The notes beneath the pieces were generated by a model. It searched no databases and had not been told where the DNA came from. It saw nothing but the letters and a program-made list of their open reading frames with translations. Below, in pieces: positions 53,062 through 61,803 of a stretch of 64,000 bases of DNA (position 1 is the first letter of the stretch; the number at the start of each line of letters is the position of its first letter). The DNA is from Salegentibacter sediminis (lineage in GTDB: Bacteria; Bacteroidota; Bacteroidia; Flavobacteriales; Flavobacteriaceae): assembly GCF_002078605.1 (NCBI RefSeq), contig NZ_MSJR01000002.1:1-64000 (forward strand), in the 5' to 3' direction. A program made the translations under genes and the position numbers.

Positions 53062-55248
53062 ATGTCAACTTTACGATTTGAAGCAATAAAACAAACTTTT
53101 AACCGTAAGCCGGTAAAGGTGGATGAGCCTCCAAGAAGATCTGAGATCTACGCTACCCATGTTTTTAATGAAGATGTAATGCGTCAGTTTCTTACTAAAG
53201 AAGCTTACCAGAATGTGAAAGATGCAATAGAGACAGGAGCCAAGATAAGCCGCGGTGTTTCCGATCATATTTCAACAGGAATGAAAGAGTGGGCAATCTC
53301 CAAAGGTGTGACTCACTATACGCACTGGTTTCAGCCTTTAACCGGGACTACCGCAGAAAAGCACGATGCTTTTTTTGAGACCGATGGACCTACCCGGGCA
53401 ATTGAAAAATTTGGGGGTGGACAACTCGTTCAGCAAGAACCTGATGCCTCCAGTTTCCCAAGTGGTGGTATTAGAAATACCTTTGAAGCACGTGGATATA
53501 CCGCCTGGGACCCAACGTCTCCTGCTTTTATCTGGGGAACTACCCTATGTATCCCCACTGTTTTTGTAAGTTATACCGGAGAGGCTTTGGACTATAAAAC
53601 TCCGTTACTTCGTGCCTTGCAGGCGGTGGACAATGCAGCTACAAAAGTGGCTAAATACTTTGATAAGAACGTAACCAAGGTACATGCTACCCTGGGTTGG
53701 GAACAGGAATATTTTCTAATTGATTCTGCTCTCTATAATACCAGGCCAGATCTACAACTGGCGGGAAGAACTCTTTTAGGGCATTCCCCTGCAAAAGGAC
53801 AGCAGCTGGACGACCATTATTTTGGTTCAATTCCTTCCAGAGTGCTTTCTTTTATGAAAGAACTGGAAATAGAATGTATGAAATTGGGAATTCCCGTGAA
53901 GACGCGCCACAATGAGGTAGCGCCAAACCAATTCGAACTGGCTCCTATTTTTGAGGAAGCTAACCTGGCGGTAGACCACAATTCTTTGCTAATGGATGTG
54001 ATGTCTAAAGTAGCCGAGAGACACGACTTCAAAGTTTTATTCCATGAGAAACCATTTGCAGGTATTAACGGAAGTGGAAAGCATAACAACTGGTCCCTTA
54101 GTACCAATACCGGAACAAACCTGTTAGGACCTGGTTCAACTCCAATGAAAAGCCTTCAGTTTTTAACTTTCTTTATCAATACCATTAAAGCGGTACACGA
54201 TAACGAGGAGCTATTAAGAGGAGCTATCGCAAGTGCATCTAACGACTACAGGCTTGGGGCCAATGAAGCGCCACCTGCAATTATTTCAACCTTTATCGGC
54301 TCGCAACTTACCAAGGTTCTTGATGAACTGGAAAAAGTTACCGACGGTAAGCTTTCTCCTCAAGAGAAAACCGACCTGAAACTGAATGTTGTTGGAAAGA
54401 TCCCGGAGATTCTTCTGGATAATACCGATAGAAACCGTACCTCACCTTTTGCCTTCACGGGTAACAAATTTGAATTCAGAGCGGTAGGATCAACTGCCAA
54501 TTGTGCGAATCCTATGACCGTGCTCAATACTATTGTTGCCAAGCAGCTTAAAGATTTCAAAAAGGAAGTTGATGAGCTGATTAAGAACAAAAAAATGAAG
54601 AAGGATGATGCCATTTTCAATGTGCTTAGGGAGTACATCAAGAAATCAAAGAAAATTCGTTTCGAAGGAGATGGTTATGGTGAGGCCTGGGAAAAAGAGG
54701 CTGCAAAACGTGGTTTGAGTAATAACCGCTCTACACCTGAAGCTCTTAAGATAATGAGTTCTAAAAAGACTATAGATCTTTACAAGGAAATGGGAGTGAT
54801 GAACAAGGTAGAGATCGAAGCACGTCATGAGATCGAGCTGGAAGAATATTCAATGAGAATCCAGATTGAGGGAAGAATTCTGGGTGATATAGCCCGGAAC
54901 CATGTGATTCCTACTGCTATTCGTTATCAGAATCTACTTATTGAGAATGTAGAAGGCCTTAAGCATATTTACAACGAAGGTTTCAAAGAACATTCCAGAG
55001 AACAATTGGATATTATTGAGAAAATCTCGGCACACATCGCTAAGATCAATAGCAAAGTGAATGAGATGATTGAGGCAAGAAAAGTCGCCAATAAGATAGA
55101 AGACCCGGAGAAGCGTGCCTTTGAGTATTGCAATGAGATAAAACCTTTCTTTGAGGAGATAAGATACCACTGTGATAAACTGGAGCTAATGGTAGACGAT
55201 GAGCTTTGGCCATTAACCAAATACCGCGAACTCCTGTTCACCAGGTAA
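53062..55248 (+). CDS. glnN: Glutamine synthetase, type III
   Basis: The 728-residue length and sequence fit GSIII, the large dodecameric form common in Bacteroidota and cyanobacteria. It makes glutamine from glutamate, ammonia and ATP. Visible motifs are GVTHYTHWFQPLTGTTAEKH (substrate-side His), FIWGTTLCIPTVFVSYTGE, GWEQEYFLID (metal Glu near 213), KTRHNEVAPNQFELAP, FHEKPFAGINGSGKHNNWS and NRTSPFAFTGNKFEFRAVGS. The gene stands alone between a consensus promoter and a strong terminator. No PII or amt gene is adjacent. Confidence 0.97.
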   Translation: MSTLRFEAIKQTFNRKPVKVDEPPRRSEIYATHVFNEDVMRQFLTKEAYQNVKDAIETGAKISRGVSDHISTGMKEWAISKGVTHYTHWFQPLTGTTAEKHDAFFETDGPTRAIEKFGGGQLVQQEPDASSFPSGGIRNTFEARGYTAWDPTSPAFIWGTTLCIPTVFVSYTGEALDYKTPLLRALQAVDNAATKVAKYFDKNVTKVHATLGWEQEYFLIDSALYNTRPDLQLAGRTLLGHSPAKGQQLDDHYFGSIPSRVLSFMKELEIECMKLGIPVKTRHNEVAPNQFELAPIFEEANLAVDHNSLLMDVMSKVAERHDFKVLFHEKPFAGINGSGKHNNWSLSTNTGTNLLGPGSTPMKSLQFLTFFINTIKAVHDNEELLRGAIASASNDYRLGANEAPPAIISTFIGSQLTKVLDELEKVTDGKLSPQEKTDLKLNVVGKIPEILLDNTDRNRTSPFAFTGNKFEFRAVGSTANCANPMTVLNTIVAKQLKDFKKEVDELIKNKKMKKDDAIFNVLREYIKKSKKIRFEGDGYGEAWEKEAAKRGLSNNRSTPEALKIMSSKKTIDLYKEMGVMNKVEIEARHEIELEEYSMRIQIEGRILGDIARNHVIPTAIRYQNLLIENVEGLKHIYNEGFKEHSREQLDIIEKISAHIAKINSKVNEMIEARKVANKIEDPEKRAFEYCNEIKPFFEEIRYHCDKLELMVDDELWPLTKYRELLFTR

Positions 55249-55628: not shown

Positions 55629-57113
55629 ATGAAAAAAGTGATTTTAAGCGCTGCGGCGCTAATGATTGGGGCGATTGGGTTTGCCCAGGTGAGCGGGGCA
55701 CCTACAGCTCAATCCCAAACTACTGTGCCTAATAACAGTAGTAATGTTAATGCCAACAAAGGTAAATCTGAGCAATTTGGTGACGATCACAGGGTAAGGG
55801 TTAGACAGGCAGGAACCAAACAATCGGTTTACACCTATCAGGCTAACGGTGTTGGAACTATTGGCGGGAACAGGGCCGAGATACTTCAATCCGGGGATAT
55901 TAATGCTAACAGTGGTCGATTAAATGCGGCAGATGTATTACAAACCGGGGATGAAAACCTATCACTTACCATTCAGGAAGGCAACAGAAACAATGCTATA
56001 ACCAGACAGGGACAAACTGATCTTAACGTTCTAAGTTCAGGTAACCAGGCATACATACGCCAGGGAAACAATGGTAATGCAGAAGATAATTACGCTGCTA
56101 TAGACCAGGACGGTTTGAACAACCAGGCGAAAACCATTCAAACCTATGATAATAACGATGCTTATACCGATCAGGATGGAGATAATTTGAGGTCAAGAAT
56201 ACGACAGATAGCTGCGCCAGACGGATCTAGTGGACATTGGGCTTTTGTTGATCAACAAGGGGATGATAATGAATCCTGGGTGCTTCAGGAAGGTGCAGGT
56301 GCCAGAAACTATGCACATACCGCTCAGGATGGGGAAGGTAACTATGCCGACCAATATCAAACAACTCAGGCCACATCAGGTGATGCAAACCGTGCTCGTC
56401 TTGCCCAAGGTATTAATCCTTCTTACAGTATAGTAGGATTTAATAATGAAATGGATGATTTACGAGATGATACTTATGATGTTGATGGGACACCAAATAA
56501 TACTTCTCTTTTCTCGAAAGGTGCTCAGGCTTTTCAAAAACAGAATGGAGATGATAACCAAGCTAATATAGGTCAATATGGGGTTGAAGCTTTTGGTAGA
56601 GGAAATTATGCCTATCAGAATCAGGAAGGAGATGACAATAACTCTTTTATTGTACAGGATTTATTTGGACCATCTAACGGTGGAGGTAATAAGGCGCAAC
56701 AAATGCAGGATGGAGATGATAACAATGCCGGGATAGTGCAAAGTGGTAAAGGTCATAAAGCCGGACAATTTCAGTATGGTGATGACAACATAGCGCTAAC
56801 TTCACAAAAAGGTAACAGAAATAAAGCATTTACCTTTCAGTATGGCGATGATAACTGGGTAAGTACTGCTCAAAGAGGTCACGACAATAAAATAGTTATT
56901 TCTCAATATGATGGACAAAGCTATATTGCTGAGCAAAACCTTTATCCACATCCACAAGCGGGAGGTAACCAGATTGATGTTGTTCAAACAGATGGTAGCC
57001 AGTCTATTAATGATTGGTTAGCTGAGGAATGTGAAATCGATATGTTGACTCCACAGACCTGGACTGGTACTCCAGTTCCATCTACTCCAGATATTTGTCA
57101 GGATTGCAATTAA
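55629..57113 (+). CDS. Major curlin-like amyloid subunit (CsgA-like)
   Basis: The 494-residue protein has a signal peptide (MKKVILSAAALMIGAIGFAQ). About 18 imperfect curlin-type repeats follow, built on alternating polar and aliphatic residues with Gln and Asn at fixed places, for example NKAFTFQYGDDNWVSTAQRG and NNAGIVQSGKGHKAGQFQYG. Each repeat is a strand-turn-strand of the amyloid stack. E. coli CsgA has five repeats, so this subunit is several times longer. The C-terminus is atypical: a Pro/Thr linker and Cys468, Cys490 and Cys493 (ending DICQDCN). First gene of the operon. Confidence 0.88.
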   Translation: MKKVILSAAALMIGAIGFAQVSGAPTAQSQTTVPNNSSNVNANKGKSEQFGDDHRVRVRQAGTKQSVYTYQANGVGTIGGNRAEILQSGDINANSGRLNAADVLQTGDENLSLTIQEGNRNNAITRQGQTDLNVLSSGNQAYIRQGNNGNAEDNYAAIDQDGLNNQAKTIQTYDNNDAYTDQDGDNLRSRIRQIAAPDGSSGHWAFVDQQGDDNESWVLQEGAGARNYAHTAQDGEGNYADQYQTTQATSGDANRARLAQGINPSYSIVGFNNEMDDLRDDTYDVDGTPNNTSLFSKGAQAFQKQNGDDNQANIGQYGVEAFGRGNYAYQNQEGDDNNSFIVQDLFGPSNGGGNKAQQMQDGDDNNAGIVQSGKGHKAGQFQYGDDNIALTSQKGNRNKAFTFQYGDDNWVSTAQRGHDNKIVISQYDGQSYIAEQNLYPHPQAGGNQIDVVQTDGSQSINDWLAEECEIDMLTPQTWTGTPVPSTPDICQDCN

Positions 57114-57183: not shown

Positions 57184-57705
57184 ATGAGAATTCTAATTTA
57201 TATTTTAATAGTTGGTTTTATCTTGTATTCTTCTCAATCTACGGCTCAAACCTATATAGAGACTACAGATGAAGAATTGGTGGAGGAAGGAAAAGAACTC
57301 ACCCCGGAAACCTTATCCTATTTGGGAATTTTTACAAGCTTAAATCCCCGTGTTCAGGAAATCACCGGCAACTCGGTTTTCCTTGAACAAATTGGGGAAA
57401 TGAATCAAGTAAATGTCATGACCCGAACAGAAGCCAGTGAAATTAATATTCGCCAGGAGGGTAATAATAACAATACCAGCTTGAAATATATTGCCAAAAC
57501 TGCTTATACAGATGTTTTTCAGCTCGGGAATTATAATTCAATAAAGGACTTTGTAAATGCTCCTACTGAAGAAATCTCATTAGAACTGCAACAAACGGGG
57601 AATGATCAAATATTTGAGAGAAATGGGATAAATGAGCTTACTAAATCCATAAGGTTTAATCAAACAGAAGCCACTCCGGTTTTGATTATCAATAGTTATA
57701 ATTGA
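57184..57705 (+). CDS. Minor curlin-like protein (CsgB-like candidate)
   Basis: A 173-residue protein with a signal peptide (1-22, ending QSTAQ). An acidic N-terminal segment (about 23-60) precedes three or four curlin-like repeats (FLEQIGEMNQVNVMTRTE, INIRQEGNNNNTSLKYIA, TDVFQLGNYNSIKDF, LELQQTGNDQIFERNG). In E. coli, CsgB is the short curlin that nucleates CsgA on the surface; this protein's place and size suggest the same role, which is inference. It ends INSYN and its TGA overlaps the csgE ATG by one base. Confidence 0.75.
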   Translation: MRILIYILIVGFILYSSQSTAQTYIETTDEELVEEGKELTPETLSYLGIFTSLNPRVQEITGNSVFLEQIGEMNQVNVMTRTEASEINIRQEGNNNNTSLKYIAKTAYTDVFQLGNYNSIKDFVNAPTEEISLELQQTGNDQIFERNGINELTKSIRFNQTEATPVLIINSYN

Positions 57706-58475
57706 TGGGTTTTCATAGAAACATAGGATTAGTGGTGTTTTTCTGCTTTGCGCTTGTCTTTCAGGTAAAAAGCCAGATCCTGAACCAGGTGATAAAAGCC
57801 TCTATTCAGGTTGAAGACAAAGGCGAATTTCTAAATTTCAAGGCCGTCGCAGAAAACCTGAATTCCGCCGATCGCAATCTGGAGTATGAATTTATTGTGA
57901 TAAAAAAGGATTCCCAGGGGAATACCTCCAGAACAAGTCAGGGAGATAGATTCTTTATAAAAGCTTATGAAAAAATAATTTTATCGTCTACCCAGGTTAA
58001 TAGAGCCTTAAATGGAAGTATTATCGTGATGCATCTTATATATGATAAAGATCGTAAACCGGTAGGCCGTGATAAGCTCGAATTTGAATTTACAGAAGAA
58101 GGTATTAAAGAAGTTTCGGAAAGGAAGGAAATAAAAATAAGTACTGATGAAGCAAAACCCCAGGATGGATTTGTAATCAATGGGTTAGTAATTGAAAATA
58201 CTATCACTAAAGCGGGTAGGGATTTCTATCGCTTTTTTTATTCCGATTATTATAACCGGCAAATCACCACTCCTTTTAATATTAAGATTGAAGAAGACCC
58301 GGGAAGAGGGAGAATGACTCGAATTTCGGTATATGTGCAGGACGAGTTAATTATGAGATTTTTTGCACAACCCCGGCGGGATTATTTAAAACAGATGGCA
58401 GAAATCGCCATGCAACGAAGTATAAATCAACTTAGAAAGTTAGAACAACAAACCACCACCGTAAAACATTATTAA
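57705..58475 (+). CDS. csgE: CsgE with N-terminal CsgH-like domain
   Basis: From ATG 57705 (one base into the preceding TGA) the protein has 256 residues and a signal peptide (1-23). Residues 155-245 match CsgE: FVINGLVIENTITKAGRDFY, FNIKIEEDPGRGRMTRISVY and FFAQPRRDYLKQMAEIA. CsgE caps the CsgG channel and targets curlin to it. Residues about 25-128 are an additional beta-rich domain (IQVEDKGEFLNFKAVAE, LEYEFIVIKKDSQGNTSRTS, QVNRALNGSIIVMHLIYDKD) that looks like CsgH, the small periplasmic inhibitor of curlin aggregation known from alphaproteobacteria. The CsgE part is secure; the CsgH match is my reading of the sequence pattern. Confidence 0.9.
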   Translation: MGFHRNIGLVVFFCFALVFQVKSQILNQVIKASIQVEDKGEFLNFKAVAENLNSADRNLEYEFIVIKKDSQGNTSRTSQGDRFFIKAYEKIILSSTQVNRALNGSIIVMHLIYDKDRKPVGRDKLEFEFTEEGIKEVSERKEIKISTDEAKPQDGFVINGLVIENTITKAGRDFYRFFYSDYYNRQITTPFNIKIEEDPGRGRMTRISVYVQDELIMRFFAQPRRDYLKQMAEIAMQRSINQLRKLEQQTTTVKHY

Positions 58476-58883
58476 ATGAAAAAGCTAGTCTTATTGATTA
58501 TTTTAGGATTTTTTGCCTATCCGTTAACGGCCCAGCAGTTAACATACACTCCTATTAATCCGGCATTTGGGGGAAACCCTTATAATTACTCGTGGATGTT
58601 GAGTTCGGCAACTGCACAAAACCAGCACAAAGCGCCGGTAGACCCCAGGGAAGAGAAATCAGAGTTAGAGCGTCTTAACGAAAATATAAATAGACAACTT
58701 CTTAGCCAGATCTCCCGCTCTTTATTAGCCGACCAACTGGAAGGTTTTAATTTTGATGAGGAAGGAACCTTTACTTATGGAACCCTGAATATGGAAATTT
58801 ACAGAAGTCTGGAAGGGATAGTTATCAATATCCTGGACACTTCTACCGGAGAGGAAACCCAAATAATAATCCCTTATACATAA
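58476..58883 (+). CDS. csgF: Curli assembly factor CsgF
   Basis: The 135-residue protein has a signal peptide (1-19). The mature N-terminus QLTYTPINPAFGGNPYNYSW matches the CsgF segment that inserts into the CsgG pore and forms a second constriction. The C-terminal half has a helix (LERLNENINRQLLSQISRSL) and strands that in E. coli contact the nucleator. It starts at the base after the csgE stop codon. Confidence 0.93.
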   Translation: MKKLVLLIILGFFAYPLTAQQLTYTPINPAFGGNPYNYSWMLSSATAQNQHKAPVDPREEKSELERLNENINRQLLSQISRSLLADQLEGFNFDEEGTFTYGTLNMEIYRSLEGIVINILDTSTGEETQIIIPYT

Positions 58884-58903: not shown

Positions 58904-60286
58904 ATGTTTAAAATTCTAAAATTATGCTGTGCCATAATCGTCATAGGTTCATTTAGTTCCTGCGCTGCTTATTTCAATCAGCCATTTCAAAAAAGTTCAT
59001 CCCGAACCGGGGAATTAACAACCAGTAGTAAACCTTTATTAGATTTACCCCCAGCGAGTGACCCGGTGGAGGTTGCGGTTTATAACTTCAGTGATCAAAC
59101 CGGCCAATACAAAGCAGTAGAGAATGGTTCTACTTTTAGTACTGCTGTAACCCAGGGTGGGACAACTATCTTAATAAAAGCCCTGGAGGACTCTGGTTGG
59201 TTCATTCCCATAGAAAGGGAAAATCTAAGTAATCTTTCTACCGAGAGAAATATAATTCGTAATACAAAACAGGAATATATTAAGAACCTGAACCCTAATG
59301 AACCGCCATTACCGGCATTACTTTATGCGGGATTAATATTGGAAGGAGGGATTATCTCCTATGATACCAATATTATCACCGGAGGCATTGGAGCCCGGTA
59401 TTTTGGTGTAGGTGGTTCTGCCAAATACAGGCAGGATAGGATTACCGTTTATTTAAGGGCTGTCTCTACCAGCAGCGGGGAAATTTTAAAAACCGTCTAT
59501 GTATCCAAGACCATCCTTTCCCAGGCCTTAGATGGAAATATCTTTCGTTTTGTGAAATTCCAGAGGTTACTGGAGGCCGAAACCGGAATTACCCACAATG
59601 AACCGGTTCAAATGGCTATTCAGGATGCTATAGAAAAGGCAGTGCATGATCTTATAGTAGAAGGAGTACAGGATAGGCTGTGGTCTGCACGTGGAGGTGA
59701 CGAAGTTAATCACCAGTTGGTTTCCAATTACCTAAAAAATAAAGAGGAGGATGATAATACGGAACTGTATGAAAGATTGTTGGTAGATCGTTCTTACAAA
59801 AACAATTTAAGTTTTTCTGGCGGAATAGCTTTAATAGATGGAGATTATCAAAAAAAGCAACCGGGAATTTTAGCCAGGTTAGAATACCAGCACGATATTT
59901 TCCCTCATTTTAGTTTAGGGGCTTCCCTAAATTATTTTCAATTAGATAATAAGAACGCCTTTAAGAATGATTATGGAAGCTTCGATCTTAATGCTCAATT
60001 GAACCTGCTCCCCAATGATGATCTTGCCCCTTATGTGTATGCGGGTTCAGGTTTTCTTAAAGCTTTAGATAGTTTCAATAATGAAAATAATGCCGAAGAT
60101 ATAAAGTCCGATTTTCTAAAAATGCAATATGGTGCCGGACTGCGGTATTTATTATCACCAAAGATAGGCATTAAAATTTTTGGAGAACATCATCTGCTTT
60201 TTGATGATAAACTGGATTATATAGAACAAGGTAAGCGGAATGATTACTACTATAATTTCGGAATAGGCATTAATTTTTATTACTAA
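58904..60286 (+). CDS. csgG: CsgG curli secretion channel with C-terminal beta-barrel-like extension
   Basis: A 460-residue lipoprotein (lipobox FSSC, Cys20). Residues 20-262 are CsgG: VEVAVYNFSDQTGQYKA, ALEDSGWFIPIEREN, ALLYAGLILEGGIISYDTN, GGIGARYFGVGGSAKYRQDR and KTVYVSKTI. E. coli CsgG, a nine-fold outer-membrane channel, ends near residue 277. Here an acidic linker (about 265-297) is followed by about 160 residues of alternating strands ending in aromatic GINFYY. This looks like an eight-stranded outer-membrane barrel (FSGGIALIDGDY, GILARLEYQHD, FSLGASLNYFQLD, YVYAGSGFL, MQYGAGLRYLL, IKIFGEHHLLF, YYYNFGIGINFYY). The role of the extension is unknown. Confidence 0.93.
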   Translation: MFKILKLCCAIIVIGSFSSCAAYFNQPFQKSSSRTGELTTSSKPLLDLPPASDPVEVAVYNFSDQTGQYKAVENGSTFSTAVTQGGTTILIKALEDSGWFIPIERENLSNLSTERNIIRNTKQEYIKNLNPNEPPLPALLYAGLILEGGIISYDTNIITGGIGARYFGVGGSAKYRQDRITVYLRAVSTSSGEILKTVYVSKTILSQALDGNIFRFVKFQRLLEAETGITHNEPVQMAIQDAIEKAVHDLIVEGVQDRLWSARGGDEVNHQLVSNYLKNKEEDDNTELYERLLVDRSYKNNLSFSGGIALIDGDYQKKQPGILARLEYQHDIFPHFSLGASLNYFQLDNKNAFKNDYGSFDLNAQLNLLPNDDLAPYVYAGSGFLKALDSFNNENNAEDIKSDFLKMQYGAGLRYLLSPKIGIKIFGEHHLLFDDKLDYIEQGKRNDYYYNFGIGINFYY

Positions 60287-60306: not shown

Positions 60307-61803
60307 ATGAAAACCATATATAAATTATTACTTCTTTCGGTTTTAGGAATCTTTCAGGCCTGTTCCGAAGACACGATTGGTGAAGAATTAACAGGATCGG
60401 TTACCGGGCTGGTAATTTCTAAAGCTACCGGAGAGCCTATAGAGGAAGTCGAAATTACTACCACTCCGGCATCTACAACGGTATTTACCGATGAAAATGG
60501 AGAATTTCTCCTCGAAAATATTTTGGTGAATTCTTATTCTGTTAAAGCAGAGGCAGACGGCTACGTTACGAGTTTTAAAGGGGTGGCTGTTACCACAGGA
60601 GCCACTTCTAACGTAGTAATTGAAATGGCAGAAGGAACCGGAAACAACCGGGCTCCAAATCCACCAAAATTGATTACTCCTGAAGATAATGCTGAAGGTC
60701 AATCTCTTGAATTAGATTTAATCTGGGAGGCTAGTGACCCCGATACCGACAGTTTAACTTATGAATTAGAAATCCGTAATAACCGGGATGACGACATTCT
60801 TAAATATGACAATATCCAGGATACTATCTTTAGGCTGGAAGGCCTTAATTATGGATATAAATATTTCTGGCAGGTGAAAGTGAGTGATAGCGTTAATAAC
60901 CCTGTGATGAGTGAGGTTAAATCCTTTACTACCTTAGAACATCCCGAGTCCAGAATTTTTTATGTAAAATCGGTTAATGGCAATAATGTGATTTATGCCA
61001 TGGACCCAAATGAGAACGAATATCAACTCACTTCTTCTGAAGTAAACAGTTTTAGACCGAGAAAAAATCTCCGAACCAATAAAATAGCATATTTAAAAAC
61101 TGAATCAAACCAAACTCACCTCTATACGATGAACCTGGATGGTTCACAGCAAACCCGCGTTACCGGTAATATTCCGGTTAACGGATTTAATCTGGAACAA
61201 CTTGATTTTTCCTGGGCTGATGATGGAGCAAGTTTGGTTTATCCTAATTTTTCGAAACTTTATAAAGTAAACGTGAACGGAAACGATACTGAACTAATTT
61301 ACCAGGAACCAAAAGGTAAATTTATCACTGAAGTGGATGTAAGCGAAAAAAATGGAAATATGGCTCTTCTGGTAAATAATGCCAGCGGCTATGAGGCCGA
61401 GATTTATATAATTGATCCGCAAGGTAATAAGGTCAAAACCGTACTTTCAAATGTAGATGGGGCAGTAGGAGGCCTGGATCTTTCTGTAGATAATAAACTG
61501 CTGTTATTTACCAGAGATATTTCCGGATATGAAAGTTCAGATTATAGAAGGTTAGATTCTCATATTTTTATTTACAATTTAGAAAGCTCATCAGTCCAGA
61601 ATTACAGTAGAGGTAAACTGGAAGGCACAAACGACCTAGATCCGCGGTTTTCGCCTAATGAAGCAGAGATAATTTTCGTCAACACCTCTAATGATGGCGT
61701 GTCTCAAAACAATATATATACCGCGTATTTGGAAGATCAGGATTCTGATGGTTCTCATAGGTTTGAGTTGATTGAGGGAGCAAAAATGCCCGATTGGGAA
61801 TAA
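60307..61803 (+). CDS. Curli-operon surface lipoprotein: CarboxypepD_reg, Fn3-like and beta-propeller domains
   Basis: The 498-residue protein has lipobox Cys19 (SVLGIFQAC). Domains in order are: a carboxypeptidase regulatory-like Ig fold (about 28-112, GSVTGLVISKATGEPIEEVE); an Fn3-like domain (about 118-210, TPEDNAEGQSLELDLIWEAS, KYFWQVKVSD); and a TolB/WD40-like propeller (about 215-495, LYTMNLDGSQQTRVTG, YIIDPQGNKVKTVLSNVDG, DPRFSPNEAEIIFV). It starts 20 bp after csgG and is followed by the operon terminator. No enterobacterial curli operon has such a gene. It could anchor or bind the fibre at the surface; this is inference from position. Confidence 0.87.
   Translation: MKTIYKLLLLSVLGIFQACSEDTIGEELTGSVTGLVISKATGEPIEEVEITTTPASTTVFTDENGEFLLENILVNSYSVKAEADGYVTSFKGVAVTTGATSNVVIEMAEGTGNNRAPNPPKLITPEDNAEGQSLELDLIWEASDPDTDSLTYELEIRNNRDDDILKYDNIQDTIFRLEGLNYGYKYFWQVKVSDSVNNPVMSEVKSFTTLEHPESRIFYVKSVNGNNVIYAMDPNENEYQLTSSEVNSFRPRKNLRTNKIAYLKTESNQTHLYTMNLDGSQQTRVTGNIPVNGFNLEQLDFSWADDGASLVYPNFSKLYKVNVNGNDTELIYQEPKGKFITEVDVSEKNGNMALLVNNASGYEAEIYIIDPQGNKVKTVLSNVDGAVGGLDLSVDNKLLLFTRDISGYESSDYRRLDSHIFIYNLESSSVQNYSRGKLEGTNDLDPRFSPNEAEIIFVNTSNDGVSQNNIYTAYLEDQDSDGSHRFELIEGAKMPDWE

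Follow-up and report, generated by a model that had tools for sequence, protein, structure and literature searches.

A curli gene of Salegentibacter sediminis joins a CsgC/CsgH-like domain to the secretion cap protein CsgE, and related genes are split between two frames at an A10-G run

The curli operon of Salegentibacter sediminis contains a gene in which a domain homologous to CsgC and CsgH is joined to CsgE; this architecture is conserved in relatives, and no separate csgH was found in the genome. We propose that the product is a tethered two-stage amyloid chaperone, a reading to which we assign a probability of roughly two thirds. According to this proposal, the fusion protein would be exported by Sec, and its N-terminal domain would make weak and transient contacts with unfolded acidic curlin, by which nucleation would be blocked. 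The C-terminal CsgE domain would join a nine-fold CsgE cap at the periplasmic mouth of CsgG, with up to nine chaperone domains per cap at the place where curlin enters the pore. The cap geometry, the curlin binding and the inhibition of nucleation assumed here are carried over from published work on CsgC, CsgE and CsgG of E. coli and on CsgH: CsgC and CsgH are described as keeping curlin disordered (PMC4838910, PMC5135000), and E. coli CsgE as capping the periplasmic entrance of CsgG with nine-fold symmetry (PMC6957492).

The analysed stretch of DNA, referred to below as the window, comprises 64,000 nt. In it, the open reading frame at positions 57705-58475 of the plus strand, which also carries all other features listed here for the operon, encodes a protein of 256 aa. 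By inspection, its hydrophobic N-terminus is a signal peptide (residues 1-24, 57705..57776) ending at a Gln which is nearly invariant in 14 homologues. It is followed by the cysteine-free CsgC/CsgH-like domain (approximately residues 25-130, 57777..58094; NF041112, E 2.1e-6, under the cut-off, with family-profile matches to CsgC and CsgH structures), a linker (approximately residues 131-157, 58095..58175) and the CsgE domain (residues 158-252, 58176..58460). The latter matches PF10627 with an E value of 8.3e-19 and 68.3 bits, where the Pfam cut-off is 25, and the solved CsgE structure 2na4 was the sole significant PDB match to the single sequence (8.5e-5; the next was at 0.16). The original prediction had placed CsgE at residues 155-245, close to these boundaries. 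A match to MtxA_C at residues 144-198 (E 0.0053) was rejected; it lies under the cut-off and overlaps CsgE.

In the operon, genes for a curlin of 494 aa and a curlin-like protein of 173 aa precede the fusion gene, after which come csgF, csgG and the gene of a propeller protein of 498 aa. The large curlin subunit (55629..57113; PF07012, E 9.7e-21) has eight curlin-repeat stretches at a lax search threshold, and the second, small subunit (57184..57705) matches the NCBIfam CsgA model with E 1.5e-6, under the cut-off, and the Pfam repeat with E 0.13. The ATG of the fusion gene shares one base with the stop codon of this small curlin gene, and csgF (58476..58883; PF10614, E 2.8e-32) starts at the base right after the stop codon of the fusion gene. 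The csgG gene follows at 58904..60286 (PF03783, E 1.2e-63, residues 55-262). As had been predicted, the operon was found to lack csgC and a separate csgH: at E 0.01, the CsgH model matched no gene of the genome other than the fusion gene, and NCBIfam and Pfam scans of the five other operon products revealed no CsgC or CsgH.

Three further observations concern the surroundings of the gene. The CsgG of the window (58904-60286) has an extra C-terminal domain resembling an outer-membrane beta-barrel (PF13505, residues 306-456, E 1e-7). The propeller protein encoded after csgG (60307-61803) contains a carboxypeptidase-regulatory-like domain and, by eye, a lipoprotein-like start; among the loci that span 8 kb or more, homologues are located beside csgG in 13 of 13 fused and 2 of 2 split ones, and it is possibly an unrecognised curli component. 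Finally, the same large gene of 728-729 aa, which we take to be glutamine-synthetase-like, precedes the curli operon both in the window (53062-55248) and in two relatives (L049, 2443-4632; L050, 8801-10990), so the site of the operon looks conserved.

The assignment of the N-terminal domain relies on profiles. The original prediction had seen a separate, CsgH-like domain in residues 25-128, and a search with the CsgH and CsgC models indeed led to CsgH, at a level below the cut-off: the NCBIfam model NF041112 matched residues 32-99 of the whole protein (E 1.2e-5, 25.3 bits) and scored 27.7 bits on the domain alone, with a curated threshold of 35 bits. Scanned by itself, the window domain matched neither a Pfam family at E 0.01 nor the CsgC model. 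The threshold was passed by five other in-frame fusions (from G281, G265, G277, G375 and G331; 36.5-46.2 bits). We aligned 14 fused homologues, namely the window protein, 12 proteins from other Bacteroidota genomes (G068 was left out) and the one named relative found, L032 from a Salegentibacter metagenome-assembled genome, whose protein is 91% identical. A contig scan with the single window protein found one locus, and a scan of viral contigs for further homologues found none. When the 14 N-terminal domains were scanned singly against NCBIfam at E 0.01, all matched the CsgH model, ten the CsgC model and none any other family; the Pfam CsgC model matched eight.

Comparison with solved structures gave the same picture. 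With the profile of the 14 domains, hmmsearch of the PDB returned CsgC (2xsk and 2y2t, approximately 3e-6) as the only significant match, the next being at 0.09. A profile of 11 of the 14 fused domains and five separate CsgH proteins matched CsgC (4.7e-7) and CsgH (2n59, 1.8e-5) and nothing else at E <0.5, and the separate CsgH of G387 as lone query reached CsgC at 9e-5 and 2n59 at 0.0058. A phmmer search of the PDB with the window domain alone returned nothing relevant; CsgC and CsgH were reached only by the profiles or by the separate CsgH. Among 2834 ORFs of the fetched loci, the profile made from fused domains only recovered the separate csgH of G387 (5.1e-15) and G166 (1.3e-14), those of G195, G344 and G309 (3.7e-11 to 1.1e-8), and also that of G231 (5e-4) and a second one of G344 (2e-3). 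In hhalign, the 14 fused and seven separate sequences were aligned over 97 columns with 98.9% probability and E 2.9e-17, an E value for one comparison. Based on these two results, the fused domain and the separate CsgH constitute one family. The CsgH-like motifs pointed out in the original prediction also align with CsgH, SRTSQGDRF of the window being placed over SRIKQAGAF of 2n59 in an alignment whose window row was placed by hand. Taken together, sequence-profile homology supports membership of the N-terminal domain in the CsgC/CsgH superfamily, as had been suspected from its strand pattern.

The distribution of the fusion was analysed in 395 Bacteroidota genomes, 41 of which have CsgE. Among these 41, the CsgH-like domain is fused in frame in 14, frame-split in two, encoded by a separate csgH in six, and neither form was detected in 19. 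No genome of the 41 has both a fused and a separate csgH; since there are only six separate cases, this lack of overlap is purely descriptive. In total, 27 of the 395 genomes matched the CsgH model at E 0.01 (13 in-frame fusions, two frame-split, six separate and six other); the fusion of G130 was missed in this whole-genome search, and its domain is among the 14 aligned. The six other matches (17.7-23 bits) are in ORFs of 771-3818 aa of genomes without CsgE and were treated as noise, a level which is exceeded by the 27 bits of the window domain within its curli operon. Among 14 control genomes E. coli alone was matched, under the cut-off and presumably through its CsgC. The six genomes with a separate csgH hold seven such genes, located approximately 3.7-6.6 kb away from csgE; G344 harbours two csgH-like genes in tandem (L067, 1345-2244; 61.4 and 37.3 bits), and the extracted CsgE sequence L013 from this genome was excluded for its wrong reading frame. 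The CsgE extensions of G037 and G158 looked possibly CsgH-like by eye, were recognised by no profile and were counted among the 19.

The first frame-split cases, with the CsgH and CsgE parts in different frames, were found in G316 and G324 of one genus (g2), which is probably Flavobacterium. A search of 299 genomes of this genus yielded 73 with a match and 72 true carriers, of which 37 have the in-frame and 35 the split form; the only match of G599, a 563-aa ORF, was excluded, and likewise the third match of G652. We examined 36 split loci, namely L049 (6479-7209, plus strand), L050 (6228-6958, minus strand; from G324, found in the phylum draw) and 34 more (L124-L157), together with the in-frame loci of 36 of the 37 carriers (including L094-L123; G562 was left out). 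In all 36 split loci, CsgE lies in the -1 frame relative to CsgH. A hydrophobic signal-like stretch is present near the start of the CsgH frame in 32 loci, the remaining four having a longer open frame, and is present in the CsgE frame of none of the 36. In addition, the CsgE frame contains no ATG, GTG or TTG ahead of the domain in 28 loci and one or two such codons in eight. There are no internal stop codons in either half. Synonymous differences have reached saturation (median pS of 0.71 in CsgH and 0.68 in CsgE), and the median dN/dS is approximately 0.09 for both halves, with 78 and 149 measurable pairs of 630 and maxima of 0.34 and 0.42. Judged by these substitution patterns, both halves of the split loci are under purifying selection.

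Several features separate the fused domain from CsgH in the strict sense. CsgH is defined by two cysteines far apart in sequence (Taylor 2016, PMC4838910), and neither the window domain nor the other 13 fused domains contain any cysteine; thus, the CsgH disulphide is absent. The potency of CsgH is described as reduced in the 'Quad' mutant K32/D36/R45/K47, and, with the window row placed by hand, R45 is kept as R76, K32 is replaced by E62, D36 by I66 and K47 by S78. Without the cysteine pair, with one of the four Quad charges kept and with a score of 25.3-27.7 bits where strict CsgH requires 35, the window domain was filed under the CsgC/CsgH superfamily and not under CsgH in the strict sense. 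The pI values of the window curlin (4.29) and of the chaperone domain (8.16) fit the pI rule of Taylor 2016 (PMC4838910); that of the CsgE domain is 9.69. Across the 14 domains the pI ranges from 4.66 to 9.43 and the net charge from -7 to +5. Since the pI is 5.37 in L032 and three of the 14 domains have a net charge of -3 or lower, the basic charge is not fixed.

The absence of the cysteines and of three of the four potency-linked charged residues, together with the variable net charge, speaks for an alternative in which a descendant of CsgC/CsgH has lost its anti-amyloid activity and serves now as a spacer, an oligomerisation aid or a docking module of the cap. In other lineages the same end of CsgE carries LysM, which suggests that this end takes up unrelated modules. 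Against a loss of activity, the domain makes up the entire zero-frame product in 36 of 36 split loci and could thus be made free, like CsgH; most of these products have the signal-like stretch mentioned above, and the dN/dS is approximately 0.09. In six separate Bacteroidota CsgH, likewise placed by hand, Lys is absent at the positions of K32 and K47, with Arg at the former in one of them, so conservation of these two residues does not extend across the family. We consider a domain without anti-amyloid activity unlikely, and prefer the tethered chaperone.

A second alternative concerns the split form itself, which could reflect phase variation, with the A-run changing in length by slippage during replication, or sequencing errors at the homopolymer. 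A-runs are prone to insertions and deletions, and long runs occur in in-frame genes as well. A linker A-run of at least eight is absent in 29 of the 36 in-frame relatives; in the other seven its length varies, with A10-G in three, A9-G in two, A11-G in one and A10-T in one, and in each of them the -1 frame meets a stop codon 1-6 codons after the run. Only the split genes show a constant length: their junction is exactly A10-G in 36 of 36 loci, phased xAA AAA AAA AAG and never of another length, and the zero-frame stop codon follows 1-31 bases past the run. All 11 junction positions have a conservation of 2.0 bits, in comparison to at most 1.5 bits over 45 downstream positions; of the 30 positions upstream, one has 2.0 bits and the others at most 1.82. 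Of 30 other columns that show an invariant residue across the two halves, a single codon is used in two only, and the third junction lysine is AAG in all 36 loci, with lysine codons elsewhere being 602 AAA and 122 AAG. Elsewhere in the loci of the split relatives, A or T runs of at least nine occur 15 times in 93,936 bp. Such constancy amid saturated synonymous sites, with both halves conserved and free of stop codons, argues against phase variation and against errors, as do four split assemblies in 100-170 contigs, which look like short-read assemblies. In the tree, the split form falls mainly into one group, with L148 elsewhere on a longish branch; four changes between the in-frame and split forms are needed, two of them forced by well-supported branches (L117, L118 and L121, with linker A-runs of 9-10, are labelled plain in-frame). 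RNA structure past the A-run, with a mean z of -1.25 relative to mononucleotide shuffles, was not used as evidence. Overall, phase variation or sequencing error appears distinctly improbable.

The likeliest account of the split relatives is that programmed slippage at the A10-G run would yield two products, a free CsgH and a CsgH-CsgE protein; either RNA polymerase or the ribosome may slip. We are not aware of recoding elsewhere in amyloid secretion, and none appeared among the literature matches listed. The window gene itself contains no slippery run, its longest A-run being six in the gene and five in the linker, and is a fixed in-frame fusion. Based on these observations, it seems quite probable that Flavobacteriales produce inhibitor and cap from one gene, with the ratio of free to tethered inhibitor set by programmed A10-G slippage in about half (35 of 72) of the carriers in the one large genus and with the lineage of the window being fully fused.

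That the domain is instead an unrelated Ig-like or other beta-sandwich, for example of the DUF1425 type, and resembles CsgH by composition and strand pattern only, is highly improbable: PF07233 (DUF1425) matched residues 24-98 with E 0.0037 and 17.6 bits (cut-off 28.3), one of the 14 domains matched a fibronectin-type-III family at 0.005, and the weak structure model resembles generic beta-sandwiches, but DUF1425 matched none of the 14 domains alone at E 0.01, compared with 14 for CsgH and eight for Pfam CsgC, and the PDB profile searches singled out CsgC and CsgH. The AlphaFold models, built from alignments of two sequences only (window and L032), were of low confidence: the full protein had a pLDDT of 37.7, the domain alone one of 51.9. 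Foldseek with this low-pLDDT domain model gave no match at E <= 0.001 and was set aside as carrying no information on the seven-stranded Ig-like sandwich of the CsgC/CsgH superfamily.

The fusion bears on earlier descriptions of Bacteroidota curli systems. Bacteroidetes curli operons were reported without csgC (Dueholm 2012, PMC3521004), in a paper whose main text does not contain the word 'fusion'. CsgH sub-families were reported to occur in Bacteroidetes (Taylor 2016, PMC4838910); 'fused' and 'domain' are absent from the main text, and fused domains may be among the sequences of that study. A survey from 2023 is described as counting CsgC or CsgH by genome. Among the matches listed for the open-licence literature, none dealt with a fusion of CsgH and CsgE or with csg frameshifting, which does not prove that no such paper exists. 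The reported absence of csgC leaves the question of how Bacteroidota curlins stay unfolded, and a chaperone wired into the cap would be a direct answer. If our reading is true, the frame-split relatives provide a natural titration of free versus tethered inhibitor from one mRNA, and the respective contributions of CsgC/CsgH and CsgE become measurable. Last, surveys that look for separate csgC or csgH genes may overlook the fused form.

Of the known systems, E. coli CsgE (PF10627; 2na4) is resembled by residues 158-252, which score over the cut-off, and by the adjoining csgF and csgG. To our knowledge, however, a chaperone domain at the N-terminus is absent from E. coli CsgE. An extra N-terminal module on CsgE is also present in other Bacteroidota, but there the module is LysM, which exceeds the Pfam cut-off in six of 11 other CsgE extensions scanned and is just under it in one. 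Such LysM-CsgE proteins (L002, L005, L008, L014, L015 and L016) are possibly a peptidoglycan tether for the curli cap. With CsgH of Alphaproteobacteria (NF041112; 2n59), the window protein shares a homologous domain with the core Y.L.V...G..G.S...Q.G.F, the vicinity of curlin genes and secretion. In contrast to CsgH, which has its own gene, the window version is fused to CsgE, is free of cysteines, keeps one of four potency charges and scores below the cut-off. CsgC of Enterobacteriaceae (PF10610; 2xsk, 2y2t) provides the top PDB matches of the family profile, and the ten fused domains matched by the CsgC model do not include that of the window; CsgC is described as a separate gene product carrying CxC (PMC4838910), and the fused domain has neither trait. 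Finally, the split relatives within the genus can be compared to dnaX-type A-run frameshift genes, as covered by the GeneTack survey (PMC3711429), whose main text contains neither 'curli' nor 'csg'. That work, on other genes, gives reporter frameshifting of 10%, 40% and 63% where the run has 7, 9 and 11 A, respectively. Common to both are the A10 run, a continuation in another frame and two expected products; what differs from the dnaX-type genes is that in the split relatives the run joins two curli chaperones.
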